Virus record (IMG/VR): IMGVR_UViG_3300023313_000028 | Location: 1-25,126 of that record | Source of the DNA: a virus | Length of the DNA stretch: 25,126 bases | Strand: one strand, 5' to 3' | Part shown: positions 7,676-25,126 of the stretch, piece by piece | How positions within the stretch are numbered: the first letter of the stretch is position 1 | Layout: the number at the start of each line of letters is the position of its first letter | Notes under the pieces: model-generated | What the model was told of the DNA's origin: nothing | Seen by the model: the letters and a program-made list of their open reading frames with translations, nothing else | The model's database searches: none | Translations under genes and position numbers: made by a program

Positions 7676-7677
7676 AT

Positions 7678-9224: not shown

Positions 9225-9538
9225 TAATCACCATATAGTAAAGTTATATCTGTTCCAAAATTATTTAAATCAGGATCAATATTTTCTCCGCTTGTATGAA
9301 CGCAGTAAAAATCTCTTGGCGGTAAACCTTCGCCAATCATTCCTAATTTTAAAGGTATTCCAGTTTGTAAAATAATTCCAAATAATAAAGGAGTATTTTG
9401 TTCATCTGAAATATCCATCACCCATCTATCTTCTCGCCTATTATATCTGAATCCTAGTGTATAAATTACAAAATCGAGTTCAACTCTCATGGTATAAGCA
9501 AAAATATCGTTTCTTATTGGTATTTTTACGAAACTCAT
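9224..9538 (-). CDS. Baseplate plug-like protein (cyanophage Pam3 gp18 type)
   Basis: The 104-residue protein has the core W-V-M-D-I-S-D-E-Q-N-T-P-L-L-F-G-I followed by L-Q-T-G-I-P-L, matching the pattern W-x-x-x-I-x-D-x-x-x-x-x-L-x-x-G-I-x-L-x-x-G-x-x-L of small baseplate plug proteins typified by Pam3 gp18. Such proteins sit inside the hub channel. It lies between the Dit-like and hub genes, as expected for that role, and overlaps both (ATGA at its start). No good ribosome site is visible upstream, so translation probably depends on coupling. Assignment rests on a short motif and gene order, hence moderate confidence. Confidence 0.75.
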   Translation of the reverse strand: MSFVKIPIRNDIFAYTMRVELDFVIYTLGFRYNRREDRWVMDISDEQNTPLLFGIILQTGIPLKLGMIGEGLPPRDFYCVHTSGENIDPDLNNFGTDITLLYGD

Positions 9539-10245
9539 ATTCCAATTCCTGTTAATTTAGATAATATAGATTGCCCTTTTGATGATTCTTCCGATGAAGG
9601 TGTGTCTGTTCCTTGTTTTCCAAGGTTTGTTTTTGAAACACCTGTATGTTGAACATCTTTTGCTAGTTTTCTTTTTGAAATTTTTGTTGTTTGAGATTTT
9701 ACTATTTTAACTTTTAAAAAATCTATTGTGAATTTTATAGACTTCCCAATTTTTTGGTCAACTGGAATTGTTATCGAAGTTATCAACATATCCTCATATT
9801 TTCTTAATCCAGTAACAAGTGTCATTGGTATTTTTAAATCACGCATAACTAATAACTGCTCAAGTGAGTCATTTACTCGATCTTGACTGTCTGTTGAAAG
9901 CATATCTGTTGAAAGTATAGCCCCTGCAACACCTGCAACTGTTGATATATTTGAAACTGCTCCAACTGCGACATTTTTTAAAATATTTTGCATTGAAATT
10001 GGAGCTTCTGAAATTATTCCTTCAATTTGAACTGTTTCTGGCTGATGAACAACATTGTCATTCACGCTATTTGTACCATCAACGTCTTGCTCTACTTCGT
10101 TTGTAGTTACCTTTGATTTAAATGAGTGGTTTTCTCTTAATGTTGCATCTAATTGAATAACACCGAAAAGCTCTTTATTATCGCCTTGAAATCCAAACTG
10201 AGTTCTGAAACCTCTTTTATTAAATAAAATACCTATTCCTGCCAT
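9535..10245 (-). CDS. Dit-like baseplate/tail protein
   Basis: The 236-residue product contains FGVIQLDATLRENHSFKSKV, a V-T-x-x-x-V-E-Q, a D-x-V-V-H-Q-P-E-T-V-Q-I-E-G-I-I-S pattern and a basic beta-rich second half. The sequence L-D-A-x-x-x-E-x-H-x-x-x-S-x-V-T-x-x-x-V-E with D-N/H-V...P and I-x-G is what I know from the Dit-like N-terminal domain of myophage baseplate proteins. It follows the tape measure directly, as Dit does. Residues 85-130 are hydrophobic and small (VAVGAVSNISTVAGVAGAI), possibly a loop contacting the tape measure. The last 50 residues are Ser/Thr/Lys-rich and probably disordered. It should form the ring joining the tail tube to the hub. Confidence 0.82.
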   Translation of the reverse strand: MAGIGILFNKRGFRTQFGFQGDNKELFGVIQLDATLRENHSFKSKVTTNEVEQDVDGTNSVNDNVVHQPETVQIEGIISEAPISMQNILKNVAVGAVSNISTVAGVAGAILSTDMLSTDSQDRVNDSLEQLLVMRDLKIPMTLVTGLRKYEDMLITSITIPVDQKIGKSIKFTIDFLKVKIVKSQTTKISKRKLAKDVQHTGVSKTNLGKQGTDTPSSEESSKGQSILSKLTGIGI

Positions 10246-10249
10246 TAAA

Positions 10250-11821
10250 CTACTCCGCTATTGGTGTCGATATTTGACGTTTGGTGTTTATAAAAAGCTC
10301 GCTTAAATTATCAGATAGTGATTGTCTCACAACGTCTGCAACTTGATCTTGATTCGTTCCCTCTGGAACACTTATAGTTATTGGTGCATCTATTTTAACG
10401 TCATTAGATGTTTGATTTTGACCTGCTGAACCTATACTTTGAGCTGTGTTGCTCGCAGGTGTTGTTGAAAATACATTATCAAAACCAAATTTACTTAAAA
10501 CTCCATTAGCTTTTACGTTTAACAAATTGCTGAACTCACTTATTTTTTTCAAAACATTATCAAGTGGAGTTATAAACCAATCAACAAATTTTTGACTTAT
10601 CCAATCACCGAAACTTGTCCATTGACCTTTTAACCAAATAAACATATCGCCAAATTTATTCATAATTACTGCGGTAACTGATTTTTCACCATTAAAAAAT
10701 GCAACAATATCTTCTATCGCAAGTAATAATGTCGCAATTCCTGCTCCTATCAATAATGGAATCAATAGAGCTTGAGCATTTGCCAACATTGTAGCTAATT
10801 TAAAATTTTTCATTCCAGTAATTAAAGAAAATATTGCAAGACCCATATTACCTAATGCAGATAACATATTTGCACCTAAAAATAATAACATTGCATCAAG
10901 AGCAAGTTTTATAGAACTTTCAAGACCGCCAAAAACATTTGTAACCGCCTTTAAGACTTTAAAAGCTCCCATTAAGACAGAAACAAAATTTCCAATAAAT
11001 TTAACCATGTCTTTTATGAATTTTATAACTCGAACTTTTATTAATTTTTTATTTGCACTGAACCATTTCAATGTGATTGATAGCATTTCTTTGGCTTGAG
11101 GAAGTAAAGATTTACCAAGTTCTGCTGAAAAGTTTTGCATAACACCCTGAATAGTTGAAATTAACCCAAGATATGATTTTGATTGTTTAGCCATTAATCC
11201 AGCAAATTTTCCATTACCTGTCGCTAAATCAGTCAATGCTTTGTCAACATCAGAAAAACCAACTTTTCCTTGAGAGACCATTTTTATAATTTCTTGTTTT
11301 GTTACACCCATTCCTTTTGCTAATGAATCGAGAATTGGAACACCTGCTTCAAGAAACATATTCAATTCTTCCATTGTTCCTTTTCCTTTAGTTTTTATTT
11401 TTCCAAAAGCTCGAACAAGTGTACCGAATTTATCTTTTCCAACACCAGATGCAATATTTCCTAAAATTTCTGTTTTCTTTATTAAATCCTCTTGAGCTAC
11501 ACCAAAAGCAAGAAGTCCTTTTGTTGCCTTTATAACTTCGTTCGTATCAAATGGGGTAACATCAGCAAATTTTGTTATCTCACTCATTAAAGATTTTGCT
11601 TTCTCCATAGAGCCAAGCATTGTTTCAAAAGCAATTAATGTCTGTTCTCTTGCTCCTGCTTCATTTAAAAGAAAACCAACTCCTGCGGCAGCTGAACCTG
11701 CGATTGCAGTTAATTTAAATAGACTACTTTTAATGTTTTCAATATTTGAATCCAATGCTCGCAACGGCTTGTCGTTTACATCAAAACCAAATTTTGTAAT
11801 AAGCTCACGAATAGTTGCCAT
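10250..11821 (-). CDS. Tape measure protein
   Basis: The 523-residue protein has the tape-measure N-terminal domain of the TMP_3 type at about residues 35-235: AREQTLIAFETMLGSMEKAK, TPFDTNEVIKATKGLLAFG, and GTMEELNMFLEAGVPILDSL with V-G-F-S-D-V-D-K-A-L. Two long hydrophobic stretches follow at about 300-365 (MLLFLGANMLSALGNMGLAI and LLIPLLIGAGIATLLLAIED), typical of tape measures that insert into the host membrane. It sets tail length and is threaded in the tube. At roughly 1.5 angstroms per residue, 523 residues would give a tail of about 75-80 nm, short to medium for a myophage. Its ATG shares a base with the stop of the frameshifted chaperone product (TAATG), coupling their translation. 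Confidence 0.92.
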   Translation of the reverse strand: MATIRELITKFGFDVNDKPLRALDSNIENIKSSLFKLTAIAGSAAAGVGFLLNEAGAREQTLIAFETMLGSMEKAKSLMSEITKFADVTPFDTNEVIKATKGLLAFGVAQEDLIKKTEILGNIASGVGKDKFGTLVRAFGKIKTKGKGTMEELNMFLEAGVPILDSLAKGMGVTKQEIIKMVSQGKVGFSDVDKALTDLATGNGKFAGLMAKQSKSYLGLISTIQGVMQNFSAELGKSLLPQAKEMLSITLKWFSANKKLIKVRVIKFIKDMVKFIGNFVSVLMGAFKVLKAVTNVFGGLESSIKLALDAMLLFLGANMLSALGNMGLAIFSLITGMKNFKLATMLANAQALLIPLLIGAGIATLLLAIEDIVAFFNGEKSVTAVIMNKFGDMFIWLKGQWTSFGDWISQKFVDWFITPLDNVLKKISEFSNLLNVKANGVLSKFGFDNVFSTTPASNTAQSIGSAGQNQTSNDVKIDAPITISVPEGTNQDQVADVVRQSLSDNLSELFINTKRQISTPIAE

Positions 11822-12455
11822 TATTTTTTCTTCCTTGAATTTAATTCGCTCAATTCATTCATTGCGTCTATCATATCATGTAAATCAGCCAAGTCGCAAA
11901 GCGTATAATGATCTTCAATTTCTTGAAGTGTTGCCATTTTCATATAAACAGGCAAAAAAACAAACGTATCAACATCGTTAAAATCAATTTCGGTCGCACG
12001 ACCAGTAGAACTTATCCTACTTTTCCTACGACCCCTTCTAAAAAATCAGAAAAATTAACCTGTAAAACTGACCACATTACTTTGTACATGTGAAGTAAAC
12101 CATATTCATTAAAATGAGAATCAACTGTAATCATTCTTTTTCCATCAGGTTTAACAAAATCAACATTTATTAATGTTAAGGTAAATTGTTCTATTTTTTC
12201 CTCGTCTGCATCTGCCGAAAATTCCATAAATGCACTTGCTATAGCTTCAAGATTTTTTTCACCCTTGCCGAATGATTCTAAATCAGTATCAAGAAGACCT
12301 TTTGTATCACCTTTTAATAATTGCAATATAAAATTTGAAATAGGTTTTCCAAAAGTGTTTATCAATTTAACTAAAATTCTTTGTGCTTTTAATGGACTAC
12401 AAGGCATTATATTATAGCTCACACTATCAATAATGACCGTTTTTTGCTCTCTCAT
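11821..12455 (-). CDS. Tail assembly chaperone GT-type product, made by -1 frameshift
   Basis: This is the extended form of the chaperone. Translation starts at 12455, reads to the slippery heptamer T TTT TTA at 12045..12039, slips back one base so that base 12039 is read twice, and continues to the TAA at 11823..11821, giving about 211 residues (139 plus 72). The extension reads RRGRRKSRISSTGRATEIDF and then a helical acidic part and a basic end NSRKKK. The -1 frame has a stop just before the heptamer and no good start of its own, so frameshifting is its natural route. This matches gpG/gpGT of lambda, where GT links the tape measure to tube subunits. The extension ends exactly at the tape measure start. 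Frameshift efficiency cannot be known from sequence. Confidence 0.8.
12012..12455 (-). CDS. Tail assembly chaperone, short (G-type) form
   Basis: The 147-residue product starts at the ATG at 12455 because GGGAGG lies four to five bases upstream; a TTG four codons earlier falls on this ribosome site and is rejected. It begins MREQKTVIIDSVSYNIMPCS, then SPLKAQRILVKLINTFGKPI. The pattern of a short beta hairpin and P-x-K-A-x-x-x-x-x-K-L matches the tail assembly chaperone family (TAC_15 type). The rest is helical and acidic. It lies between the tube and tape measure genes, the conserved position. The last codons before its TAA hold the slippery site for the longer form. It keeps the tape measure soluble during tail assembly and is absent from the virion in studied relatives. 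Confidence 0.85.
   Translation of the reverse strand: MREQKTVIIDSVSYNIMPCSPLKAQRILVKLINTFGKPISNFILQLLKGDTKGLLDTDLESFGKGEKNLEAIASAFMEFSADADEEKIEQFTLTLINVDFVKPDGKRMITVDSHFNEYGLLHMYKVMWSVLQVNFSDFLEGVVGKVG
12039..12045 (-). promoter_or_regulatory. Programmed -1 ribosomal frameshift site (T TTT TTA)
   Basis: The heptamer T TTT TTA fits X XXY YYZ in the zero frame (…gat ttt tta gaa…), the same heptamer used by HIV-1. In the -1 frame a TGA lies directly upstream, so slippage must occur here or later to give the extension, and no other good heptamer follows before the zero-frame stop at 12014..12012. About five bases downstream a structure can form: GGTCG (12033..12029) may pair with CGACC (11996..11992), enclosing a 5-bp hairpin AGTAG/CTACT (12021..12017 with 12008..12004). 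Alternative pairings exist, so the fold is uncertain. Confidence 0.78.
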
Positions 12456-12528
12456 TCTACCTCCCAATAAAATAAAAAATGGTGACTTGATTTATTAACG
12501 GAAAACCAAGCCAAAAAACCAGATATTT

Positions 12529-12945
12529 TTAATTTCCGCCAAGAAACATATCTAAATTTTCACACTGAAAAACATATTCAAATTCTGGTAAATCTTTTGT
12601 ATATTCAGCCGATGGCCATTTTACACAATAAGCTGATTCAGCTTTATGAAGATCAAAACCTGAGTTATCTTTGCATAGAACTGGAACTATTCCAGAATTA
12701 TCAATTTCATCTTTTTTAATTAAACCACTAAAAAACGCATTTGATGGACTTGATTTTTGAAGTCGAACAGTTACTTTTCCTGCTTTGCTAGGATTTTTTG
12801 CCCTTGTTCCACCACCGTTATTGTCACCATGATAAGTATAAGCATCATCGTCTCTGTCAAATGTCACAAAAGAATCTTCTGATCCACCTTCAACAATATG
12901 CCCACCAATTATAAGTGCCACTTCTGAATAATCGTAAGTTTTCAT
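12529..12945 (-). CDS. Tail tube protein (DUF3277/PhiTE type)
   Basis: The 138-residue protein opens with YDYSEVALIIGGHIVEGGSE and then D-S-F-V-T-F-D-R-D-D-D-A-Y-T-Y-H-G-D-N-N-G, followed by A-K-N-P-S-K-A-G-K-V-T-V-R-L-Q-K-S-S-P-S-N. These are the hallmarks of the DUF3277 family, the tube proteins of KPP10- and PhiTE-like myophages: an I-x-G-x-x-I-x-G motif and the S-x-x-G-x-V-x-V-x-L strand. It polymerises as hexameric rings around the tape measure. It follows the sheath by 16 bases with AAGGAG before the ATG. A gap of 73 bases follows it, without a clear terminator, before the chaperone start. Confidence 0.9.
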   Translation of the reverse strand: MKTYDYSEVALIIGGHIVEGGSEDSFVTFDRDDDAYTYHGDNNGGGTRAKNPSKAGKVTVRLQKSSPSNAFFSGLIKKDEIDNSGIVPVLCKDNSGFDLHKAESAYCVKWPSAEYTKDLPEFEYVFQCENLDMFLGGN

Positions 12946-12961
12946 ATTTTATTTCTCCTTT

Positions 12962-13996
12962 TTAAACAGTTACAACACCGTTGATTGTCATACTATGAAC
13001 TGCACCTGCTAAAACACCTTCAAATTTAATATTTGGAAGTATTCTCGATGCTCTATTATTAAAAGATATTGATCTAACATCAGGAATTGTTATCGAATAT
13101 TTTGGATCATTTGTTAAAATTCCTTGATTTTCAGCAAGCTGTAAAACTGCGTCCATTTCATTTTCAATAATTCCTGCACCTTTATTTGTATAAGGTATTT
13201 TTGGAAGATTTGCCAATTTAGCAAAAATTGCTTCTTGCATACGAGCATGAATAAAATCAACTCCTCTAATTACATCTATAAACTCACCAGAAGCCATTGT
13301 GCCTTCTTCTGTGATACTTGCACCACCAATAATATTATACCAGTTAGCTTTTTTTGTTTTTAAATTTGTAATATCCGTTCCAGATAAATTATTAGCACTA
13401 ACACCAGAAAGATTTTTAAATTTCCAAGTAGCACTTCCAGGAAGTGTTGGAAGCATACGACCAAGCCAAGCCATTTCTTGATAAACAGTAATATCCGCAC
13501 CATATAAAACTGCTGTTCTTGTTCTTGATAATCCGTTCAAAACTCCTGCAATATCAGTTATAGTCACAGCCAAAACATTTGTATCGGCACTTCTTACCAT
13601 TGATATTTTTCTTTGAGATTCAACCCATGTTGCTAATGCTTCTTGATCTGTTTGAAGGACTGATTGAATACCAACCCCGTAGAAATCGTCATTTTCAGCT
13701 TGTATAGCATTTAAAGCAACTGTTAATGTTTCAGCACTTTCAACATATCCAATCATTAATTGAGTAGGAATAAGAGCTTGTGAAAAGTATGCAGAACAAG
13801 CTTTGTAAACTTCATCAGCAGGTAAAAATTCAGTTTTATATGAATCTTGGTCATAAATTCTAACCCTTGTTGTTTGTCCGGCAGGTTTTTCCGTTGAATC
13901 AGAAGCAACGAATAACGCTGTTCCAAAACCTTTTTGACTTACACCTTTCGTTTGTCTGTCAATTTGAATGTTAATTATTCGATCTAATCCACTCAT
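12962..13996 (-). CDS. Contractile tail sheath protein (DUF3383 type)
   Basis: The 344-residue protein begins SGLDRIINIQIDRQTKGVSQ with the G-F-G-x-x-L-F-V strand, and has the D-E-V-Y-K-A-C-S-A-Y-F-S-Q and P-T-Q-L-M-I-G-Y pattern typical of DUF3383 sheaths. The C-terminal half has GEFIDVIRGVDFIHARMQEA and a closing beta region ending MTINGVVTV. It forms the contractile outer layer and establishes the myovirus type. At 344 residues it is near the small end for sheaths. AAGGAG lies about seven bases before the ATG. It is the first of the sheath-tube pair, which would be among the most abundant virion proteins. Confidence 0.92.
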   Translation of the reverse strand: MSGLDRIINIQIDRQTKGVSQKGFGTALFVASDSTEKPAGQTTRVRIYDQDSYKTEFLPADEVYKACSAYFSQALIPTQLMIGYVESAETLTVALNAIQAENDDFYGVGIQSVLQTDQEALATWVESQRKISMVRSADTNVLAVTITDIAGVLNGLSRTRTAVLYGADITVYQEMAWLGRMLPTLPGSATWKFKNLSGVSANNLSGTDITNLKTKKANWYNIIGGASITEEGTMASGEFIDVIRGVDFIHARMQEAIFAKLANLPKIPYTNKGAGIIENEMDAVLQLAENQGILTNDPKYSITIPDVRSISFNNRASRILPNIKFEGVLAGAVHSMTINGVVTV

Positions 13997-14005
13997 ATAT
14001 TCTCC

Positions 14006-14554
14006 TTATAAAGTTTCGTTTATTCTATTTGGGTCGCCCTCATATCTATCATACCCTGAATTTGGGTCAGATGAAACATTTTCAATTAATTCTATATCAA
14101 ATTCAGCTAAACTAACAACCCTTACTCTAAAATCAAGCTGTAATCTTTCTTCAAAATTTGTTTGCATTAATTCTGAAAGGTTTTGAATGTTTGGCGTGTC
14201 AATAATTGCTATTTCTATTCCATACTGAACACCTTCAAAATGTAACATGTGTCTAAATACGCTAGACATCATTAAATCATGAAGGTTTGAAAGTGTATTT
14301 ATTGCATTTTCTCCATATATATTTACAGAAAATGTCATGTTTCTATTCCCGAATGATTGCATCTTTGAGCCACTAACTAGCTCCACATTAGCCCCTACTT
14401 TTAATGGGCCTGCTATTAATTTAACAGTGCAATATGAACCACTTTTTTGAAGTAGTTTTATTCTATCAAATTTTTGATCCGCCCAAACCACTGGTATTCC
14501 TACGAAGTTTGTTATTACTGACCAAATAGAATCTTTTGTTTCTTTAATTTTCAT
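14006..14554 (-). CDS. Tail terminator/neck protein (gp12-like, LIC_12616 type)
   Basis: The 182-residue protein opens with a helix and the motif GIPVVWADQKFDRIK, then Y-C-T-V-K-L-I-A-G-P and a beta-strand pattern F-S-V-N-I-Y-G. The G-I/V-P-V-x-W-A-D-Q core is the signature I know from neck terminator proteins of DUF3383/DUF3277-type myophages. It would cap the tail tube and sheath and dock the tail to the head. It lies directly upstream of the sheath gene and overlaps the head-closure gene by 11 bases. The C-terminus is acidic and loop-like (DPNSGYDRYEGDPNRI). Confidence 0.8.
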   Translation of the reverse strand: MKIKETKDSIWSVITNFVGIPVVWADQKFDRIKLLQKSGSYCTVKLIAGPLKVGANVELVSGSKMQSFGNRNMTFSVNIYGENAINTLSNLHDLMMSSVFRHMLHFEGVQYGIEIAIIDTPNIQNLSELMQTNFEERLQLDFRVRVVSLAEFDIELIENVSSDPNSGYDRYEGDPNRINETL

Positions 14555-14882
14555 CTTTTCTCAATATTGCTGTGTATTTATTATGCTGTATTCTTGAGTT
14601 GTATTTTTTAACCATTGAAACTTCATATTTTTCACCATCAAACTCAATAAAATCTGAAATTCCATCTTTCTCATAAATCATTAACTTTTCTTTTGTATAT
14701 ATTTTGATAGCTCCCTCTGTTCTTGCTCCAAATATTTCTCTAATAAGTTTAATATTTCCTTCTGGTTGAATAGAACCAGTTATTTTTAAATCAATTCTAG
14801 CAGTTTCAACGAGAACACCTTTAACAAACTTTTCGCCTGTTTTACCTCTACTTACAATTATTTCATCTTCCTTAATTATCAC
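14544..14882 (-). CDS. Head closure / head-tail connector protein
   Basis: Translation starts at the GTG at 14882, which overlaps the preceding TGA as GTGA and has AAAGG about seven bases upstream. The 112-residue product is a compact beta-barrel-like sequence: ARIDLKITGSIQPEGNIKLI, then GARTEGAIKIYTKEKLMIYE, D-F-I-E-F-D-G-E-K-Y-E-V and K-Y-T-A-I-L-R at the end. The pattern G-S-I-Q-P, G-x-R-x-x-G-x-I-x-I-Y-T and G-x-x-Y-x-V is typical of head-closure proteins in this myophage group. Its place between the gp10-like protein and the tail terminator agrees. The exact homologue is not certain. Confidence 0.75.
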   Translation of the reverse strand: MIIKEDEIIVSRGKTGEKFVKGVLVETARIDLKITGSIQPEGNIKLIREIFGARTEGAIKIYTKEKLMIYEKDGISDFIEFDGEKYEVSMVKKYNSRIQHNKYTAILRKDEN

Positions 14883-15352
14883 TCGTTACCTTTTCTTAAT
14901 TGCCATTTAATAGATTGTCTCATTCTTCCAGTATCTATTAAAGGATTATTTGAACCCTTGCTTTTAATCGTACTAGGTGCATTTGGTGGACTTTTTAAAT
15001 CAGTGATTTTTTTCTGAATTAACCCTTGAATCATAACACCTGCTAGGCTTAACGCCTTATTTGCTTTTATTCTATTTAGTAATATTTTAACCTTCATGTT
15101 TTCCATGAATTTAAATAATTTTCTTTCGTTTTCATCAACAGTTGATCTTATAAATGATCTTTCTGGAACATGACCGCCATTTTTAGTTGTTCCAAACTCG
15201 TTAGCTGTTGCGTATTCTACAAGACCAAAATCGCTTCCTCCTGACTCTTCACCAAGAACACCAATTGCAGTATAAGGATTTTTTTTAAGATCTTTAATTT
15301 GCTTTTTTAAAGTATCCCACTGTTTGCGTCTATCAATAATTTTTCCACTCAT
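14879..15352 (-). CDS. HK97 gp10-like / neck protein
   Basis: The start chosen is the ATG at 15352..15350, which overlaps the upstream stop as ATGA; an ATG nine codons earlier lies inside the previous gene and has only a weak ribosome site. The product is 157 residues. It has VEYATANEFGTTKNGGHVPE followed by R-S-F-I-R-S-T-V-D-E-N, the A-x-x-x-E-F-G-T...I/V-P-x-R-x-F-x-R/x signature of HK97 gp10- and Mu gpG-related proteins, and near the C-terminus a P-L-I-D-T-G-R-M-R-Q-S-I motif, also typical. These act in head-tail joining or tail completion. Confidence in the family is good. Confidence 0.85.
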   Translation of the reverse strand: MSGKIIDRRKQWDTLKKQIKDLKKNPYTAIGVLGEESGGSDFGLVEYATANEFGTTKNGGHVPERSFIRSTVDENERKLFKFMENMKVKILLNRIKANKALSLAGVMIQGLIQKKITDLKSPPNAPSTIKSKGSNNPLIDTGRMRQSIKWQLRKGNE

Positions 15353-15684
15353 AAAACAATAGCCGATATGACATTGCATTTTCTTAATTCTAAATACATA
15401 AGACCATAATTAGATTGTGAAAGATATTCTTCACCAGTTATAATGTTATATTGATAAGTTATGTCGCCGACTTTCTCTGATGATAATTGCCCTTGTGAAG
15501 ACGTGTTCCCACCAACTGTAGAAAGGGCGTGTGCAGTAAGTAAAAAAACCGCAGTTTCATAGTTGTTTCCAAATTGATCTACACTAACATTTTCAACCAT
15601 TAAATTTAGATACATTTGAATTTTTAACTCATTAGTATTTGAAAATTCATCAAAGCTATCTAAAAAAGTTTGAACATCTATCAT
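15349..15684 (-). CDS. Head-tail adaptor (DUF4054 type)
   Basis: The 111-residue protein starts IDVQTFLDSFDEFSNTNELK and continues with an A-V-F-L-L-T-A-H-A-L-S motif and S-S-E-K-V-G-D-I-T-Y-Q-Y, then Y-L-S-Q-S-N-Y-G-L-M-Y-L-E-L. The F-x-x-x-F-x-E/F-F start, the L-L-T-A-H-x-L helix and the K-V-G-x-x-x-x-x-Y strand are the DUF4054 pattern, a gp6-like adaptor that binds beneath the portal. GAGGT lies seven bases before the ATG. Just upstream is an intrinsic terminator, so expression of this and later genes depends on read-through or on a promoter I cannot identify. Confidence 0.82.
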   Translation of the reverse strand: MIDVQTFLDSFDEFSNTNELKIQMYLNLMVENVSVDQFGNNYETAVFLLTAHALSTVGGNTSSQGQLSSEKVGDITYQYNIITGEEYLSQSNYGLMYLELRKCNVISAIVL

Positions 15685-15696
15685 TTTTTTACCTCA

Positions 15697-15739
15697 AATA
15701 AAAAAACCACCTAACTCAAATAAATGAAAAAGGCGGTTT
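15697..15739 (-). terminator. Intrinsic terminator between head and neck genes
   Basis: On the minus strand AAACCGCCT (15739..15731) pairs with AGGTGGTTT (15712..15704): nine pairs with one G-U, an 18-base loop, and a run of T directly after the stem. It lies 33 bases after the stop of the 117-residue gene and about 10 bases before the ribosome site of the adaptor gene. The long loop weakens it relative to the one at 16139. Confidence 0.75.
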
Positions 15740-15771
15740 CTAATATTAACCAATCAACAAAGGAGTATTGA

Positions 15772-16125
15772 TTATTTATCGTCCTTTTGAACTAAATGAT
15801 CTTCAATTTCCTTTAACTTAGAGTCAATCGACTTTAATATTGCCGCTCTTTTTTGCCCTTCTTCTTCTGATGATTTCCATTTCATTAAAACTTCTTCATC
15901 GTTCATTTCTTTAATCATTGGAACAGCTTTTTTTACAGATAAGTTTCCAAGCGATTTGTCACTTGCACCTTCTGATGATTCAAGACTTAATTCTTCATGT
16001 GCTTCAATTTCTTTTGCCCATGTTTTAACTTTTGAATCTTCGATTAAATTTGAACCCGGAGACAATACAACTTTTCCAAGAATTATCGCCCTTTCTGCAT
16101 TATTTGTAATTATTACTTTTGCCAT
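15772..16125 (-). CDS. Small head-associated protein of unknown function
   Basis: The ATG at 16125 is chosen because GGGAGG lies about four bases upstream; a TTG at 16137 overlaps that site. The 117-residue product begins AKVIITNNAERAIILGKVVL, a beta hairpin with S-P-G-S-N that recalls small head or neck proteins, and continues as a charged helical part (KVKTWAKEIEAHEELSLESS; KAAILK-like helices at the end) finishing VQKDDK. It sits alone between two intrinsic terminators, directly after the major capsid gene. A role as a minor head, head-completion or head-fibre protein is plausible but unproven. I do not recognise a named family with confidence. Confidence 0.7.
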   Translation of the reverse strand: MAKVIITNNAERAIILGKVVLSPGSNLIEDSKVKTWAKEIEAHEELSLESSEGASDKSLGNLSVKKAVPMIKEMNDEEVLMKWKSSEEEGQKRAAILKSIDSKLKEIEDHLVQKDDK

Positions 16126-16138
16126 TTTCCCTCCCAAG

Positions 16139-16168
16139 AAAAAAACAGGGACTAAATTAATAGTCCCT
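16139..16168 (-). terminator. Strong intrinsic terminator after major capsid gene
   Basis: The minus strand reads AGGGACTA (16168..16161), loop TTAATT, TAGTCCCT (16154..16147), then G and seven T (16145..16139). The stem is eight perfect pairs with a six-base loop, a classical Rho-independent terminator. It begins 14 bases after the capsid stop codon. It would end most transcripts carrying the capsid gene and raise the capsid-to-tail ratio. Confidence 0.88.
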
Positions 16169-16181
16169 TATTTAATATTTT

Positions 16182-17165
16182 TTATTGTGCAACTTCTGCG
16201 TATGCCGCACTTAATGGTCTAACAAATTGTAAACCACCCATTCTAGCATAATTTTTTACGCTGTATTCTGAACCATCCCAAAAAGGAAGCAAAGATTTAT
16301 ATCTTACAGGTAAATGAAATTTAAGCTTTCTTGGATTTTTGCTATAAGCAATAACTCTGTCTAATGCCGCACCTTGAAAACTATCAAGTAAATGATGGTC
16401 GCTAAATGTAACACCTTTAAATTTTTTCTCAAGGAAGTTTAAGATAGTTTTATCAAGATTATTTCCCATTGGAGTATCTTCTAAATGAAGATATAATCTG
16501 TTTGGTAAAATAACACTATCAACTTTCTCACGACCTGCTGTTGCAAGATATGGTGCTCTAATAATGCTTGAAATATCAGCAATAACTTGTTCTGGTGTTT
16601 TTAATTCCCAGTTTGAGTTTGTCGCTGTGCTATTATTAGGAAGAACAACTTGCGATAAATTAGCATTGTTAAAAAATCCTGATATCCCTGCAAGAGGTTC
16701 ACCGAAAGCCATTACTTGCTCAATTTTTGCTTCAACAACTTCACGTGCTGTTTCTGCTCTCATTCTATCAATAGGACGTTTAGCAAATTTTGCATTTTCA
16801 ATTTCTTGAAAGTTGTATCCATAAGAATCACCAAAATTTTCAAAGTTTAATGTGAATTTTGAACCTTTTACATCAACTCTTTTAAAGTCAGTCGCATAAT
16901 TTTTAATTAATTGAGCAACACCAACTTTGTCAAACATATAATATGTATGACTTTCTGCACCTGCACCTGCTTCCGAAGTAACTGGAACAAGACTTGTCAT
17001 TTTAAATTCTGGATACTCAACCATGTAAGTTTCAGCTTCAACATTTTCTAATTCTCTTGCAAAAAAAGCTGAACTCGCCGCATCTTCTTTAAAGATAGTG
17101 TCACCTTTAATGGAAGACTCGATAGCATCAATTCTTGCCTGTCTTTTTTCGTTTAATTTTTCCAT
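16182..17165 (-). CDS. Major capsid protein (DUF2184-type, HK97 fold expected)
   Basis: The 327-residue protein has an N-terminal helical arm, then EAETYMVEYPEFKMTSLVPV and a core with YYMFDKVGVAQLIKNYATDF, E-N-F-G-D-S-Y-G-Y-N-F-Q-E-I, and an R-A-E-T-A-R-E-V-V-E-A-K-I helix followed by AFGEPLAGISGFFNN. The order Y-x-x-F-D-x-x-G-x-A, a Y-G/Y-S-x-x-E-I strand and the A-R-x-x-x-x-x-x-I...G...G-I-x-G-x-x-N loop match DUF2184-type capsid proteins. It should form the icosahedral shell. AAGGAG lies about seven bases before the ATG. A strong terminator follows its stop closely, consistent with a highly expressed gene. Confidence 0.9.
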   Translation of the reverse strand: MEKLNEKRQARIDAIESSIKGDTIFKEDAASSAFFARELENVEAETYMVEYPEFKMTSLVPVTSEAGAGAESHTYYMFDKVGVAQLIKNYATDFKRVDVKGSKFTLNFENFGDSYGYNFQEIENAKFAKRPIDRMRAETAREVVEAKIEQVMAFGEPLAGISGFFNNANLSQVVLPNNSTATNSNWELKTPEQVIADISSIIRAPYLATAGREKVDSVILPNRLYLHLEDTPMGNNLDKTILNFLEKKFKGVTFSDHHLLDSFQGAALDRVIAYSKNPRKLKFHLPVRYKSLLPFWDGSEYSVKNYARMGGLQFVRPLSAAYAEVAQ

Positions 17166-17188
17166 TTTATATTCTCCTTATCTTTAAA

Positions 17189-17656
17189 TTATGGAAGATT
17201 GATTGTTAAAATTGCAAGACCACCTGCAATTGCAGATGTTTCCCATTTTGCAACGCTTGAAATGTCAATACTGTTAACACCATCAGCAATGTTTCTAAAT
17301 CCACCTGTTCTTGGATTTCCAACTGTTCCAATTGCCCTAACATGAACAGCGTCACCCGGAGCAACAGCAGTTTCAACTTTTACATAAATTGAACCTTGTT
17401 CAAGAATTGATAAACCATCCTTGTCAACTGGTTGTAATCCACTTTCTGTATGTTCATGAAGAATAATACCAGTAAATTTTTCAGTTATAGCCGAAAACGC
17501 TTTTCTTTGTAATTCTTTGTCTGTTCCTAAAGTACAACCTAGACCGTACTCAAGTCCTGCACCCTCAGCAAGTTTTGATCTAACCATTCCTGCTTTGTCA
17601 TAGGCAATCATACCTTCTATTGCAACACCTCTGTTTTTATTAAATACTGTTTGCAT
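17189..17656 (-). CDS. Capsid cement/decoration protein (gp24-like)
   Basis: The 155-residue protein is beta-rich with the pattern VAIEGMIAYDKAGMVRSKLA, a GCTLGTD segment, I-L-H-E-H-T-E, a D-G-L-S-I-L-E-Q-G-S-I-Y-V-K-V-E strand and A-V-A-P-G-D-A-V-H-V-R, ending with a short strand ILTINLP. The E-x-G-x-x-x-V...V-x-x-G-D-x-V-x-x-R arrangement matches structural cement proteins of this capsid group, which bind the outside of expanded heads. The gene lies immediately upstream of the capsid gene and downstream of the protease-scaffold gene, as in related phages. GGAGTTAAAAA-type ribosome site (AAGGAG) precedes the ATG. Confidence 0.82.
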   Translation of the reverse strand: MQTVFNKNRGVAIEGMIAYDKAGMVRSKLAEGAGLEYGLGCTLGTDKELQRKAFSAITEKFTGIILHEHTESGLQPVDKDGLSILEQGSIYVKVETAVAPGDAVHVRAIGTVGNPRTGGFRNIADGVNSIDISSVAKWETSAIAGGLAILTINLP

Positions 17657-17667
17657 TTTTTAACTCC

Positions 17668-18264
17668 TTATTTGTTGTTTTTGTAGTTTTCTTCTGTTTT
17701 CTTTTGTAACATTTCTTCTGGACTTAATGAGTCTGATTTATTGTCGCTTGATTTGTTATCGTTTTCAACCTTTTTCTTTAAGGCATTAGCTAAATGGTCA
17801 ATTTTTAAATCAACACCAGTAATTGTTTCAAAAGAAGCGTTAATATAATCTTCTGATTTTTCGTCCATTTTAACATTTGGTAACATTTTTGAAACAACGT
17901 GTTTTTTTAATGTCATGTTATCCATTTCATCCATTTTTTCAATTTCAGAACAAACTTTTAAAGAGCTTTCTTCGATTGATTTTCTTTCTTTTACTAATTC
18001 ATGAATATCAACTGAATCATTTTTTGATTCTTTTAATGATTTTTCAAGGTCAGCATTTTTAACTTCTAAAGAATCAGCCTTTGCAGTTGCTTTGTCTAAT
18101 TCGCTTTTTACTTCGTCAATTTTAGAAGCATCTTTTTTAAGATTTGAAACTTCATCATTTAATTTCTTATTAGAATCTGCTTGATCTGCAATAAATTTAT
18201 TGATTGCTGTTGCATTTTCCTTTGAAACTTCAATTTCAACTTCTCCAATTTTAATTTTTTCCAT
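17668..18264 (-). CDS. Nested scaffold protein from internal in-frame start
   Basis: Within the protease gene an in-frame ATG at 18264..18262 (residue 197 of the long form) has AAGGA (18276..18272) with a seven-base spacer, a better ribosome site than that of the long gene. Starting there gives a 198-residue protein: a short beta segment KIKIGEVEIEVSKENATAIN, a coiled coil (about residues 25-80) with NKKLNDEVSNLKKDASKIDE, and an acidic-lysine-rich C-terminus. This is the arrangement of lambda C/Nu3, where the scaffold is a nested, separately started C-terminal part of the protease. A separate scaffold gene is absent here, which supports it. Whether the start is used needs proteomic proof. Confidence 0.65.
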   Translation of the reverse strand: MEKIKIGEVEIEVSKENATAINKFIADQADSNKKLNDEVSNLKKDASKIDEVKSELDKATAKADSLEVKNADLEKSLKESKNDSVDIHELVKERKSIEESSLKVCSEIEKMDEMDNMTLKKHVVSKMLPNVKMDEKSEDYINASFETITGVDLKIDHLANALKKKVENDNKSSDNKSDSLSPEEMLQKKTEENYKNNK

Positions 18265-18852
18265 ATTTCCATCCTTTTTTAGTTGTTTATCTTCTAAATC
18301 AGTGTAAAAGACACCGTCACTTTCATCAAGTTTTAATTTAACATTTGGGCCTGCTCTACCAACATCGACAAGTGCAACGTGATTATATCTAATATTGGTT
18401 TGAATTGCATCGTATTCTTGACCGTTCCAGATGCCACCTTTATCAACAACAAAAGCAGTATAACCGCATGAGACTTGCTGTTGTTCCTTATTGCTTATTT
18501 TTTTAATTATTTTTTCATCAGTAATTAATCCATTTATATCTATAAATTTACTTTCACTGACTTGTATTTGTTCGCCAACATGACCAATTTGTAATTTTTT
18601 TGCATTTTTACTGTCAACCATTCCTTTCGGATGACTGTCAGTTATTATTTTATTCTTTAAAGTTTCAAGAGAATCAACAGAAAATACTTCCTCTGATGAT
18701 CTTAATTCACGTCTAATTGAACCATCTTTCATTATATATGGAAATATACCTATACGTGTAGCTCTTATAGGAACACGCATAAAACCTTCGTCCGTAAATG
18801 ATACGTCTTGGAATCGAGAGTCAAAAATTTCTGTTCTTTTTACTTTACTCAT
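17668..18852 (-). CDS. Head maturation protease fused to scaffold (DUF2213 type)
   Basis: The 394-residue product has a DUF2213-type protease domain at residues 1-185: I-T-D-S-H-P-K-G-M-V, a G-H-V-G segment, a Q-Q-V-S-C-G-Y-T-A strand and NHVALVDVGRAGPNVKLKLD at the end. The His of D-S-H-P and the Ser of V-S-C-G-Y are the natural candidates for catalytic residues in this herpes-protease-like fold, and N-H-V-A-L-V with G-R-A-G is the family signature. The part after about residue 195 is a coiled-coil scaffold that guides shell assembly and should be removed on maturation. The ribosome site of the long form is weak (GGTAG about ten bases upstream). A promoter-like sequence lies just before it. 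Confidence 0.87.
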   Translation of the reverse strand: MSKVKRTEIFDSRFQDVSFTDEGFMRVPIRATRIGIFPYIMKDGSIRRELRSSEEVFSVDSLETLKNKIITDSHPKGMVDSKNAKKLQIGHVGEQIQVSESKFIDINGLITDEKIIKKISNKEQQQVSCGYTAFVVDKGGIWNGQEYDAIQTNIRYNHVALVDVGRAGPNVKLKLDESDGVFYTDLEDKQLKKDGNMEKIKIGEVEIEVSKENATAINKFIADQADSNKKLNDEVSNLKKDASKIDEVKSELDKATAKADSLEVKNADLEKSLKESKNDSVDIHELVKERKSIEESSLKVCSEIEKMDEMDNMTLKKHVVSKMLPNVKMDEKSEDYINASFETITGVDLKIDHLANALKKKVENDNKSSDNKSDSLSPEEMLQKKTEENYKNNK

Positions 18853-18863
18853 AACTAAATACT

Positions 18864-18892
18864 ACCATAATTTTGATTTATGCAAAGGTCAA
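18864..18892 (-). promoter_or_regulatory. Possible sigma70-type promoter before protease/capsid genes
   Basis: On the minus strand TTGACC (18892..18887) and TATGGT (18869..18864) are separated by exactly 17 bases. The -35 matches TTGACA in five of six bases, the -10 matches TATAAT in four of six. It lies in a 36-base gap before the protease-scaffold gene and the capsid genes; such a gap is uncommon in this packed operon. In AT-rich DNA chance matches are frequent, so this is weak evidence. Confidence 0.4.
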
Positions 18893-19671
18893 ATGTCAAA
18901 TACTGGCAAAGCTATACATCTACACTGGATTGGTTCGCCCGGAATTGTCCCAGAAACACCGTCAACAGTCGCACCTTTTTTGTAAGTAAATGTTTTACCA
19001 TTTACAGCTCTGTGAGAAAAACGCACCCTTTCATCCATTGAAGTTGACCATTCAAATTTCTTTATTCCTAAAGATGTGTGCCTTTGGGCAGTGATATCAC
19101 CATTTAATTTTGCCGTTTGATCTCTTGCGATTAATTTTGCCCTGCTTTTGCTTACACCCGTTCGTTTGGATATTTTTTCAGTCATCAAGGCAAGTGACTC
19201 GCCTTTTCCAACTCCATTATAAACAATAGTTCTAACATCTTTTAAATATGTATTATGAACAGTAACGATAAGTGACACGTTTTGTTGAATAAATAGATTT
19301 ATCTGAGTTTTTATACCAGTTTGAGCTACAAAAAGATCAATTCCTTGAACTTGTTTAACTTGCGCCCTTAATAAATCCAGATTATGTTCTGAAATTTCAA
19401 TTCCTCGCCTTTCTGCTAACGACTCAAGAAGTCTTTCTGGATATCTATCTGCAAACTTAATTTGAAGGTCATTAAAGATAACTTTTAAATCATCGTCAAT
19501 TGCATCAAGTCGAGAACCACTTTTTTTTGAGCTATTTTTTAAGTTTTTAAGCTTTGGAATAAGAAATTCTTTTATAATGTTATGAAGCTCACTTATTGTC
19601 CCAACAAGATCACGCTGATATTTCTTTTCAACCATAGATGGAAAACGTCTTAATTTAGATGCTCTTTCCAC
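18889..19671 (-). CDS. Head morphogenesis protein (Mu gpF / SPP1 gp7 type)
   Basis: The 260-residue protein has the family's C-terminal domain: R-A-K-L-I-A-R-D-Q-T-A-K-L-N-G near residue 180, KKFEWSTSMDERVRFSHRAV with W-S-T-S...D-x-R-V-x-x-x-H, N-G-K-x-F, and the end I-P-G-E-P-I-Q-C-R-C-I-A-L-P-V. This W-x-T...D-x-R-x-x-H-x-x-x-x-G...P-G-x-x-x-x-C-R-C signature identifies minor head proteins packaged in small numbers. The N-terminal two thirds are helical and basic. It overlaps the end of the portal gene, the usual partner. In relatives the protein enters the prohead with the portal, and some are thought to be ejected with DNA. Confidence 0.9.
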   Translation of the reverse strand: MERASKLRRFPSMVEKKYQRDLVGTISELHNIIKEFLIPKLKNLKNSSKKSGSRLDAIDDDLKVIFNDLQIKFADRYPERLLESLAERRGIEISEHNLDLLRAQVKQVQGIDLFVAQTGIKTQINLFIQQNVSLIVTVHNTYLKDVRTIVYNGVGKGESLALMTEKISKRTGVSKSRAKLIARDQTAKLNGDITAQRHTSLGIKKFEWSTSMDERVRFSHRAVNGKTFTYKKGATVDGVSGTIPGEPIQCRCIALPVFDI

Positions 19672-20981
19672 TAAAACTCACCATTATTATTAGTGTTTTC
19701 CTTTTGTTTATCAGGTGTTTTTCTAAGGTCATTGTTTATTTTTGTATCAAGTGAGTATTTACCAGAGCCATATCGAGACAAAGCAACCTCATCAGGATCA
19801 AGAATTTGATTTAATATATCAGAAGAATCAGCTTGAGAAGTTTTAAGCCTTATATCTGCTTTTTGAGTATCACTCATTTCAAATAATGATTCAAAATCAA
19901 CATCTAATCCAGCAGGTATTTCTTTTCCGTTTGCTTTTAATAAAACTTTTCCTATTTTTATTAAATTTGGCTCAAGCTCTGCTTCTTGTTTTCTAGCAAC
20001 ATAATTATACCAATTGTTATTTTCTGAATCACCGCCACTACCAAGAGTTGAAGATGGGCCTTCTCCTAAAATTACAGTATGAGGCATATTTGTATCTGCC
20101 ACGAGTTTGTTTCCAAGAACCTTGATTGATTCTGGCATACCAGTTAATGAAACGTGTTCCCTTTTAAAATCTTCATCACCATCAAGCACAATAGCTCTTA
20201 CGATTGATTTTTTAGCATTAATAAGCCCCATTCTTGTTACAACTTGGCTTTCTTTTCCTGCTCCAACTAGTTTTGCAAGCCCTTTCATTTTAAAAACACC
20301 TAAACTAAATTCATGGAGAGTTGAGGCGAGCGAATCGCAAGCTGTATTATAATTTGCTAATGAGTTTTTTACCTTATTTAAAACAGAATCATGCGTATTG
20401 TAATTTCTGATATATAGTTGATGTGGTAAGTTTGAACCGATAAACTTTATTAATCTTGAAGCATGAACAACGCTTACATCATCGTCATTTACTTCAACCA
20501 ATCTATAAGTTTCTGGTTTTTTAAAATATTCTGTTCGAACATCTGTACCTAACTCATTTACTGTTAATTGCCATTTATGGAACACCTGACACCAGTCTAA
20601 TTTTCTAATTCTTTCAACATCAAGTGGCTCTGAGTGGTCTTGTCCATCGTCAATTCCCATTAAAACGTATGCTTCACCATATAATCGAGCTTGTTTCATA
20701 GCTTCAAGAAATTTTTCTTTTACCTTAAACTCTTTTAAATAATTATTCATTTCTTCATTAAAGGAAGGTTCTGCTTGCTCATGCGAATATTTAAACTCTT
20801 TTCTGAGCATTTCTTCTGGAAGATACTCAACAACTTTTGTTGCTAATTCATCACTAGAATATAGATTTTCAACTTCATCCCAAGACATTCTGTTCCAAGA
20901 AGCAAAAGTGTCAGCTCTTCCATCTTGCCCTTTTACACCAAGTCCTGTTAAAAGGTTTTTCCATCCGTCAAATTTCCACAT
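19671..20981 (-). CDS. Portal protein (DUF1073 type)
   Basis: The 436-residue protein matches DUF1073 portals: WNRMSWDEVENLYSSDELAT, ARLYGEAYVLMGIDDGQDHS with the following L-D-V-E-R-I-R-K-L, V-V-H-A-S-R-L-I-K-F-I-G, and later N-M-P-H-T-V-I-L-G-E-G-P-S-S-T-L-G-S-G-G-D-S-E-N-N-N-W-Y. The N-terminal Y-x-S-D-E-L-A-x-K-V-V and the L-F/L-G-x-x-P...G-D-x-x-N-x-Y motifs are characteristic. It forms the dodecameric ring through which DNA is packaged and to which the neck attaches. Some DUF1073 proteins carry a C-terminal extra domain; this one ends soon after a disordered Lys/Asn tail and has none. It follows the terminase by four bases. Confidence 0.92.
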   Translation of the reverse strand: MWKFDGWKNLLTGLGVKGQDGRADTFASWNRMSWDEVENLYSSDELATKVVEYLPEEMLRKEFKYSHEQAEPSFNEEMNNYLKEFKVKEKFLEAMKQARLYGEAYVLMGIDDGQDHSEPLDVERIRKLDWCQVFHKWQLTVNELGTDVRTEYFKKPETYRLVEVNDDDVSVVHASRLIKFIGSNLPHQLYIRNYNTHDSVLNKVKNSLANYNTACDSLASTLHEFSLGVFKMKGLAKLVGAGKESQVVTRMGLINAKKSIVRAIVLDGDEDFKREHVSLTGMPESIKVLGNKLVADTNMPHTVILGEGPSSTLGSGGDSENNNWYNYVARKQEAELEPNLIKIGKVLLKANGKEIPAGLDVDFESLFEMSDTQKADIRLKTSQADSSDILNQILDPDEVALSRYGSGKYSLDTKINNDLRKTPDKQKENTNNNGEF

Positions 20982-23787: not shown

Positions 23788-23871
23788 TTACATATACCCT
23801 TTATTCATCATGGTTATAAATATCAACAATAGACAATAATAAATTATGGCTAATGTAACACTGAATTTCAT
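23788..23871 (-). CDS. 27-residue single-span membrane microprotein
   Basis: This short gene fills the gap between the SEC-C gene and the CPxC gene. The ATG at 23871..23869 overlaps the SEC-C stop as ATGA and has AAGGA (23882..23878) six bases upstream, a good ribosome site; the TAA at 23790..23788 ends one base before the next ATG. The product starts MKFSVTLAIIYYCLLLIFIT and ends with a few polar residues (NKGYM). Almost the whole length is one hydrophobic segment, so it should sit in a membrane. A small membrane regulator or antiholin-like role is possible. No family is known to me. Placement by overlap, ribosome site and stop argues for a real gene. Confidence 0.68.
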   Translation of the reverse strand: MKFSVTLAIIYYCLLLIFITMMNKGYM

Positions 23872-24056
23872 TTAACTTCCTTTACTGCTTTTTTAATCGA
23901 CTCCAAACCAACTAAAATTTTCTTGTCATTTTTAATATACTCAACATTTCCGCAACATTTCTTCATCTTTTTTCCTGATCCGCATATACAAGGCAAGTTT
24001 CTTAATTTTCCACTTTTTAAAGGATTCCTAGTAAAATTTTCTTTTAACTTATACAT
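23868..24056 (-). CDS. SEC-C motif protein
   Basis: The 62-residue protein carries a SEC-C zinc-binding motif, P-C-I-C-G-S-G-K-K-M-K-K-C-C-G at residues 22-36 (Cys23, Cys25, Cys34, Cys35). This motif was first seen at the C-terminus of SecA and in many small proteins, where it binds zinc and may bind nucleic acid or protein. Both flanks are lysine-rich. GAGG is six bases before the ATG, formed within the previous gene's end. It is the minimal form: the motif with short basic arms and no attached domain. A SecA- or ribosome-related target cannot be deduced from sequence. Confidence 0.8.
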   Translation of the reverse strand: MYKLKENFTRNPLKSGKLRNLPCICGSGKKMKKCCGNVEYIKNDKKILVGLESIKKAVKEVK

Positions 24057-24279
24057 CTACAACCTCACCGACATATAATGCTGATAATGGATGATTTTTC
24101 CCTTTCGTAACCATTGTTATTTTTCCAGTAAATATAAGTTTTAGCCTTTCAATAAATGTTATATTCCAAACACTTGCAACATGATCTTTCGACTTTGTTA
24201 CCGGCAAAAATGGTTCACCTGTTTGATCTGGGTATACAAAATTAGTGTGTTTTGTTTTAACTGGTTTTAGTTCTTTCAT
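24049..24279 (-). CDS. Conserved small phage protein of unknown function
   Basis: The 76-residue protein has ASVWNITFIERLKLIFTGKI, a W-x-x-T-F-x-E-R-L-K-x-x-x-T-G-K pattern that I have seen in many small phage proteins without known function, followed by a strand and G-K-N-H-P-L-S. The N-terminus is basic. The ATG overlaps the CsrA-like gene by 23 bases and AGGATC lies about six bases upstream. It overlaps the SEC-C gene by eight bases. Tight overlap on both sides suggests co-regulation with those genes. The motif looks like a short membrane-proximal amphipathic helix; a clear span is absent. Confidence 0.68.
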   Translation of the reverse strand: MKELKPVKTKHTNFVYPDQTGEPFLPVTKSKDHVASVWNITFIERLKLIFTGKITMVTKGKNHPLSALYVGEVVDV

Positions 24280-24475
24280 TTTTTGATCCTGTCGTTACTA
24301 TTGTTTTTCCATCAAAATGCTTTCTTACTATCTTAAATTTTTTATCCGCCTCAATATGAAGCCTGACCTGATTATTTCTATGACGCCTAACTTGAATTTT
24401 TATCACATCTCCATTATTTGACTTAAATTCAAGCCATTCTTCTTTCCTTGGTTGAAGTGTTATTACTAAAGACAT
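24257..24475 (-). CDS. CsrA-like RNA-binding regulator
   Basis: The 72-residue protein begins SLVITLQPRKEEWLEFKSNN and continues G-D-V-I-K-I-Q-V-R-R-H-R-N-N-Q-V-R-L-H-I-E-A-D-K-K-F-K-I-V-R-K. The N-Q-V-R-L-x-I-x-A-x-x-x-x-x-I-x-R core matches CsrA/RsmA, with the Arg used for RNA contact in CsrA (Arg44 region, HREE-like) retained as V-R-K and the N-terminal L-V-I-T strand in place. The I-G-D-x-I-x-V part is also kept. The last 20 residues are an extension with G-K-T-I-V-T-T-G. CsrA dimers bind GGA in mRNA leaders and block ribosome access; whether this acts on phage or host mRNA is unknown. Divergence in the first strand limits confidence. Confidence 0.62.
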   Translation of the reverse strand: MSLVITLQPRKEEWLEFKSNNGDVIKIQVRRHRNNQVRLHIEADKKFKIVRKHFDGKTIVTTGSKNERTKTS

Positions 24476-25011
24476 TTTTCACCTAATTTATGAAAAGAAT
24501 AACCAATTTTCCAATCATCGTGATTATCTATAAAGCGTAGTGAGCGTATCACATTCGCCTTGTAATCATCGTTAAACACAGGATTTATATATTTACATAT
24601 ACAATCAATTTTTCCTATTTGTACCGCTGTTTTATCGCTAAAATAAGGATATTTAATTATTAAATCATCGCAACGTGTTATCAAATTTATTTCATGTCTT
24701 GGAATAAGAATAATTGAATCTAAGAATATTCGATATGATGGGTTTAAATCAGTTTCACCAGATGTTTGAAGAGTTATATTCCAATCATTATTATTTAGTT
24801 TTGAAATAAAATCTCTATCAATAAGGCTTAAATCATTGCATATAATAAGCATATTTTTTAATCTATAACCAAGTATGCTTAACATATATTCAATTTTTGG
24901 AAACGAAACACCTTTACTTTTTTCTGATAATTCAATTAATACACATTCTTTATGAGCTTTTGAACCATAACTAAATGATGTTTTTTTAATCTTTTTTATT
25001 TTATAGTTCAC
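24466..25011 (-). CDS. QueE-like protein without radical-SAM motifs
   Basis: Translation starts at the GTG at 25011, with GGAG seven bases upstream. The 181-residue protein resembles 7-carboxy-7-deazaguanine synthase (QueE) from its middle to its end: W-N-I-T-L-Q-T-S-G-E-T (residues 77-87, like the I-E-T-S-G-T motif), I-L-I-P-R near 102-105 (like V-S-P-K), D-D-L-I-I-K-Y (115-121), Y-I-N-P (141-144, like L-Q-P) and D-W-K-I-G-Y-S-F-H-K-L-G (166-177, like W-R-L-S-x-Q-T-H-K-x-x). The C-x-x-x-C-x-x-C iron-sulphur motif is absent and the G-G-E-P motif is replaced by C-N-D. It therefore should not be an ordinary radical-SAM enzyme. It overlaps the CsrA-like gene by ten bases. Confidence 0.62.
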   Translation of the reverse strand: MNYKIKKIKKTSFSYGSKAHKECVLIELSEKSKGVSFPKIEYMLSILGYRLKNMLIICNDLSLIDRDFISKLNNNDWNITLQTSGETDLNPSYRIFLDSIILIPRHEINLITRCDDLIIKYPYFSDKTAVQIGKIDCICKYINPVFNDDYKANVIRSLRFIDNHDDWKIGYSFHKLGEKCL

Positions 25012-25013
25012 GA

Positions 25014-25126
25014 TTAATCTCCAACATATTCAAAAGTGGTTGTATATCTATTCATTGACATTGATTTTTTATTAAACATACAAGTTTTACTATTTTTCAT
25101 TCTGCTTTTTCTTACAAGTATCCATT
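25014..25126 (-). CDS. Partial ORF at right edge, unknown
   Basis: A minus-strand frame open from the right edge ends at TAA 25016..25014, giving 36 codons. The end reads MKNSKTCMFNKKSMSMNRYT and then TTFEYVGD. The gene either begins beyond the window or at the internal ATG at 25100, which would give a 28-residue product with a poor ribosome site. Its last codons supply the GGAG ribosome site of the QueE-like gene, so the two are probably in one transcript. It has no feature that I recognise. A preQ0-pathway protein would be of interest but nothing in these 36 residues shows one. Confidence 0.45.
   Translation of the reverse strand, partial: WILVRKSRMKNSKTCMFNKKSMSMNRYTTTFEYVGD

Follow-up and report, generated by a model that had tools for sequence, protein, structure and literature searches.

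The window analyzed here, a stretch of 25,126 bases, is one entire IMG/VR virus record. It corresponds to a myovirus-like fragment, in which the genes for baseplate, tape measure, sheath, capsid, portal, and terminase all lie on the minus strand. The first complete gene on this strand, with its start 115 nt from the end of the record, encodes a protein that resembles QueE, and its features are listed in Table 1. The GC content of the QueE-like gene is 25.5%, the second lowest among the genes of the window, and its GC by codon position (0.335/0.280/0.148) is similar to that of its neighbors. The AGGTG ribosome-binding site of the overlapping csrA-like gene is located inside the QueE-like gene; from the sequence, the two genes are probably translationally coupled. 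On the other side, the short frame that ends upstream of the GTG start was without a family match and possibly represents the preceding gene of the same operon.

Table 1. Features of the QueE-like gene and its immediate surroundings in the 25,126-base window.
Feature	Coordinates	Strand	Description	Basis
QueE-like gene, putative QueE-derived pseudoenzyme	24466..25011	-	181 aa; GTG start at 25009-25011, TAG stop at 24466-24468	
GGAG, Shine-Dalgarno-like site	25019..25022	-	7 nt 5' of the GTG start	Sequence
Codons 1-29, eroded QueE N terminus	24925..25011	-	Strands 1 and 2; TLQGEG replaced by TSFSYG, Arg27 by Glu	Ungapped PSSM test and alignments
Codons 29-34, junction of the missing 4Fe-4S cluster loop	24910..24927	-	About 30 aa, with three cysteines and CDT, gone	Alignment columns
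Codons 58-60, C-N-D in place of GGEP (SAM-binding motif)	24832..24840	-		Alignment
Codons 64-176, best-preserved QueE block	24484..24822	-	TSG, IPR for SPK, DDLIIKYP, YINP, DWKIGYSFHK	QueE profile and TIGR04508
csrA-like gene	24257..24475	-	First 10 nt shared with the 3' end of the QueE-like gene	Pfam CsrA, E = 1.6e-7
Open frame of 36 codons, running off the end of the record	25017..25124	-	Stops just upstream of the GTG start	

The csrA-like protein comprises 72 aa, and its match to CsrA is limited to residues 22 to 52. It scored 18.7 bits against TIGR00202, for which the cut-off is 70, and its N-terminal strand is unlike the canonical one. Two genes for diverged homologues of bacterial proteins, QueE and CsrA, thus overlap in a probable operon. 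Nearby, a gene at 23868-24056 (minus strand) encodes a 62-aa protein with little beyond a SEC-C metal-binding motif. Downstream of the tail genes, the proteins encoded at 1251-2024 and 203-490 (minus strand) have signal-peptide-like N termini, and no convincing match to them was found in the libraries tried.

Alignments of sheath and baseplate identified phages with a syntenic structural module (L078, L076, L088, L116, and L117). Together with positions 5605 to 20981 of the window, these form an uncultivated myovirus-like group sharing a syntenic head-tail module, with a sheath about 40% identical to that of Pakpunavirus/Otagovirus. The window's terminase (PHROG 2) had no counterpart in the fetched loci, and in L078 and L076 the region that precedes the packaging genes has nothing recognizable in common with the block of QueE-like, csrA-like, and SEC-C genes. 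Baseplate matches were also observed in metagenome-assembled genomes (MAGs) assigned to Desulfobacteraceae, "bacterium," Margulisiibacteriota, and Nanohalarchaeota; the contigs concerned may be phage sequences binned with the wrong genome.

Relationship of the protein to QueE

An earlier note on this DNA had recognized the protein as QueE-like from a series of landmarks, which are present as claimed: T83-S84-G85, DDLIIK (residues 115 to 120), YINP (141 to 144), and DWKIGYSFHK (166 to 175). When the protein was searched by hmmscan against 18,950 NCBIfam models, TIGR04508 (queE_Cx14CxxC) was the sole family at an E value of ≤10, with an E value of 1.6e-4. The match spans residues 63 to 176 at about 20% identity and reaches 21.5 bits, below the curated cut-off of 240, and searches of Pfam and PHROG with the protein gave no match. 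These values would suit an AT-rich phage protein with no relation to QueE and an accidental likeness to it. However, a profile made from the collected viral QueEs of the Cx14CxxC type, from which the query was excluded, scored the protein at 27.8 bits over residues 64 to 176, and the best of 2,000 shuffles scored 4.3. A separate shuffle test of the N terminus, described below, also argues against a chance likeness. Furthermore, when the query alone was searched by phmmer against the 11,158 ORFs of the fetched loci, among which QueE is overrepresented, the ten best matches were all QueE ORFs, and the motifs follow the same order along the whole length of the protein. A resemblance by chance is therefore very improbable. 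No profile or fold search favored another family over QueE, and the TIGR04508 match, the QueE profile, the shuffle tests, and the single-sequence phmmer search together support a protein derived from QueE. Judged by its sequence, the protein shares a common ancestry with QueE, and its ancestor is a QueE of the Cx14CxxC group or of the short CX3CX2C group. Its placement in a QueE tree failed, since its branch is too long.

The N terminus had been described as replaced. Instead, residues 1 to 29 (MNYKIKKIKKTSFSYGSKAHKECVLIELS) pair without a gap with residues 1 to 29 of QueE (MTYAVKEIFYTLQGEGANAGRPAVFCRFA), and the difference lies in the deletion of an internal loop. The position-specific score of residues 1 to 29 was 0.75, compared with a shuffle mean of -31.1 (standard deviation, 7.5); 3 of 20,000 shuffles (0.015%; p ~1.5e-4) scored as well, and the next best N terminus among the proteins of the window scored -16.9. 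After residue 29, the cluster loop of about 30 aa, with its three cysteines, is absent, and the sequence is eroded on both sides. A small alignment puts the gap earlier, after T11. The exact position of the deletion junction is uncertain, but the absence of the loop itself is not in doubt.

QueE is among the smallest radical-SAM folds. The AF2 model of the QueE-like protein, obtained with a 19-sequence alignment that included 18 viral QueEs, had a pLDDT of 84.4 and a pTM of 0.81. As seen in a Foldseek search of the PDB with this model, the best match was B. multivorans QueE (4njg; E = 6.5e-9; TM, 0.72) and the second was E. coli QueE (6nhl; E = 1.2e-4); no other entry had an E value below 1e-3. 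Since the alignment held real QueEs, the fold result is not independent of homology, and AF2 without an alignment was uninformative for this protein (pLDDT, 39.8). The hydrophobic pattern of the protein also correlates with that of the QueE profile (r = 0.48; z = 6.2). In the model, the protein otherwise seems to retain the QueE fold.

Radical-SAM signatures and ligand contacts

Near-invariant positions were defined as alignment columns in which at least 90% of 20 QueEs agree, and there were 64 of them. Of these, 14 coincide with the deletion, 34 carry a substitution, and 16 retain the QueE residue. The kept positions (Y3, K6, T11, G16, V24, G61, T117, G119, D128, P134, P153, P174, N183, W197, H204, and K205, in QueE numbering) look mostly structural. 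The lost ones include the cysteines, the QGE of QGEG, Arg27, which is replaced by Glu, all of TGGEP, and E116, N118, S133, K135, K149, and Q202. The site of TxQGEG reads TSFSYG and that of TGGEP reads I56-I57-C58-N59-D60, so that C58-N59-D60 faces G92-E93-P94 of B. multivorans QueE. This agrees with the earlier note, which had also reported that both radical-SAM signatures are missing; indeed, the protein contains neither CxxxCxxC nor Cx14CxxC, and GGEP is lost. Its six cysteines are scattered at positions 23, 58, 114, 137, 139, and 180, and none aligns with a cluster ligand. In B. multivorans QueE, Arg27 binds the carboxylate of CPH4 in a salt bridge (PMC5347944), and E. coli QueE with the R27A substitution no longer supports Q biosynthesis (PMC11142719). 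Given that the SAM, substrate, and metal contacts are substituted and the loop is deleted, the protein is predicted to be unable to make 7-carboxy-7-deazaguanine. With the catalytic residues lost and both signatures gone, "pseudoenzyme" was the best description among those that had been proposed.

The gene could also be one half of a split or frameshifted QueE, with the loop supplied by an intron, another frame, or a second polypeptide. The record is a fragment, and a second piece could lie outside it. Nevertheless, no other frame of the window supplies the cysteines or matches the QueE profile, the N terminus that would precede the loop is encoded in frame with the rest of the protein, and the GGEP and Arg27 sites, which belong to the part present, are lost too. 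We consider such a split extremely unlikely.

Two functions independent of catalysis were also weighed. One is that of a ligand sensor, which would bind a pterin, a 7-deazapurine, or SAM without turnover and regulate, for example, the csrA-like neighbor. Such a role is consistent with the overlap of the two genes and with the retention of H174-K175 and P144, the counterparts of the C-terminal HK and QP motifs of QueE. However, the CPH4 carboxylate contact at Arg27 is a Glu here, and the residues listed above, from QGE and TGGEP to E116, N118, S133, K135, K149, and Q202, are all changed. These changes speak against the binding of SAM and against the binding of CPH4 or a similar ligand that the earlier note had suggested, and a sensor seems improbable. 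The other is a retained moonlighting function that blocks the division of the host cell. E. coli QueE stops septation without catalysis, as seen with R27A (PMC11142719), and it is thus a QueE-fold protein that acts without chemistry, as proposed here for the QueE-like protein. Nevertheless, this role needs the region E45-W67, the counterpart of which lies within the deleted stretch. In addition, the nonenzymatic side role has been demonstrated for enterobacterial QueEs only, the QueEs of P. aeruginosa and B. subtilis being inactive in it (PMC11142719). A block of host division by the QueE-like protein is thus hardly credible.

Probable maintenance of the reading frame and possible function

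A protein that has presumably lost catalysis might come from a recently inactivated queE that is decaying without a present function, in a phage that no longer needed an active QueE. The concentration of the losses at catalytic residues, the low GC content, the failure to find relatives, and the lack of another 7-deazaguanine gene nearby are all consistent with such decay. Neutral decay was simulated at 30% GC from the QueE-like gene and three viral queEs, with 2,000 runs each. The first stop appeared at a median of 95 to 97% identity, and 60% identity was reached in 0 of 2,000 runs from any of the four starts; indels, which would disrupt the frame earlier, had no part in the simulation, and all constraint was taken to disappear at once. 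In contrast, the QueE-like gene has lost two thirds of its non-deleted near-invariant positions, with 34 substitutions in addition to the loop deletion, and still has 181 codons without a stop. Its end branch in the QueE tree measures 10 compared with a median of 0.47, about 20 times as long, suggesting that the frame remained open through many changes. Since stops appear early in the simulation and this diverged frame is open, selection has probably kept the frame intact since catalysis was lost, a conclusion drawn from one sequence. The codon-position bias and the hydrophobic pattern also persist, and the Shine-Dalgarno-like site and the probably coupled downstream gene are further signs of maintenance. 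Decay of a recently inactivated gene is thus rather unlikely, although it deserves some weight.

Relatives of the QueE-like protein were found neither in the viral contig, genome contig, and phage collections nor in 294 whole genomes, and no QueE-like gene was found in the 44 complete phage records that encode a related sheath. A DNA pattern for the C-terminal motif W-K-x-x-Y-x-F-H-K gave 22 matches, none of them recognizable relatives. In 291 genomes of the class to which the Desulfobacteraceae MAG belongs, three short matches were obtained (E ~0.01), in frames too long for the QueE-like protein.

Overall, we favor, with a probability of about 0.62, a QueE-derived phage pseudoenzyme in which the fold is kept and the frame is selected, and whose role would be to bind a macromolecule, probably a protein of the host. 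In this view, an internal deletion took the iron-sulfur loop from an ancestral QueE, the SAM, substrate, and metal contacts were substituted, and catalysis would have been lost. The QueE scaffold would have been kept for binding, and the pseudoenzyme would be produced along with the csrA-like protein, whose gene overlaps its own, in a block immediately preceding the packaging genes. We infer that the QueE-like protein is expressed and functional and that it acts by binding. The first candidate partner, one among several, is the host QueE, by way of heterodimers. It is conceivable, with little likelihood, that a captured QueE has come to inhibit the host 7-deazaguanine pathway or to serve as a decoy in it, for instance through inactive dimers with the host QueE. 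If so, it would interfere with host tRNA queuosine or with a host system of DNA modification and restriction based on 7-deazaguanine. In a limited literature search, no report was found of a radical-SAM-derived pseudoenzyme in a phage. If the fold is kept without the loop and the ligand residues, the favored pseudoenzyme would be a natural example of a QueE scaffold living without chemistry, and its partner would reveal other things that such a scaffold can bind.

Comparison with intact QueEs of viruses

The closest intact QueE by identity (22 to 24%) is a viral protein encoded at 4001-4564 of IMGVR_UViG_3300025300_000084 (L028). This is a short QueE of 188 aa with a classical CX3CX2C loop, yet its best match is the Cx14CxxC family, and, with its motifs intact, it also falls below the TIGR04508 cut-off, with 177 bits. 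The QueE-like protein has the same order of strands and helices and the same predicted fold as L028 and the TIGR04508 QueE of B. multivorans (4njg). Common to them are the N-terminal strands, which are eroded in the QueE-like protein, and the ETNG/TSG, SPK/IPR, QP/NP, and HK regions. Unlike both, the QueE-like protein is without the cluster loop, the cysteines, QGEG, GGEP, and Arg27.

The phage QueEs of PHROG 2076 (9g, Seurat, and CAjan), which belong to 7-deazaguanine DNA-modification clusters, are a phage-borne QueE lineage too, and the QueE of 9g complements E. coli (PMC6884629). In the examined members of PHROG 2076, the motifs are intact and most of the genes lie beside queC, whereas for the QueE-like protein no cluster partner was found in the record, and it has no PHROG match. 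Neither folE, queD, queC, or dpdA nor a second queE was found among the ORFs of the 25-kb record, which is a genome fragment.

To place the missing loop among viral QueEs more broadly, viral contigs were surveyed by C-terminal motifs, which gave 53 QueE ORFs, some of them near-identical and one cut by the contig end before the loop. The cysteine loop, with some spacing, QGEG, and GGEP were retained in 52 of the 52 ORFs in which the region was present. The survey patterns include intact C-terminal motifs and would therefore miss proteins as eroded as the QueE-like protein; the survey shows that viral QueEs seldom lose the loop alone, and further eroded examples may exist. The spacing of the cluster loop is very variable in the viral QueE loci L177, L178, L179, L181, L182, and L184, and several of these QueEs exhibit unusual spacings before CDT. 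As a consequence of this variable spacing, genuine QueEs escape searches that use a fixed cysteine motif.
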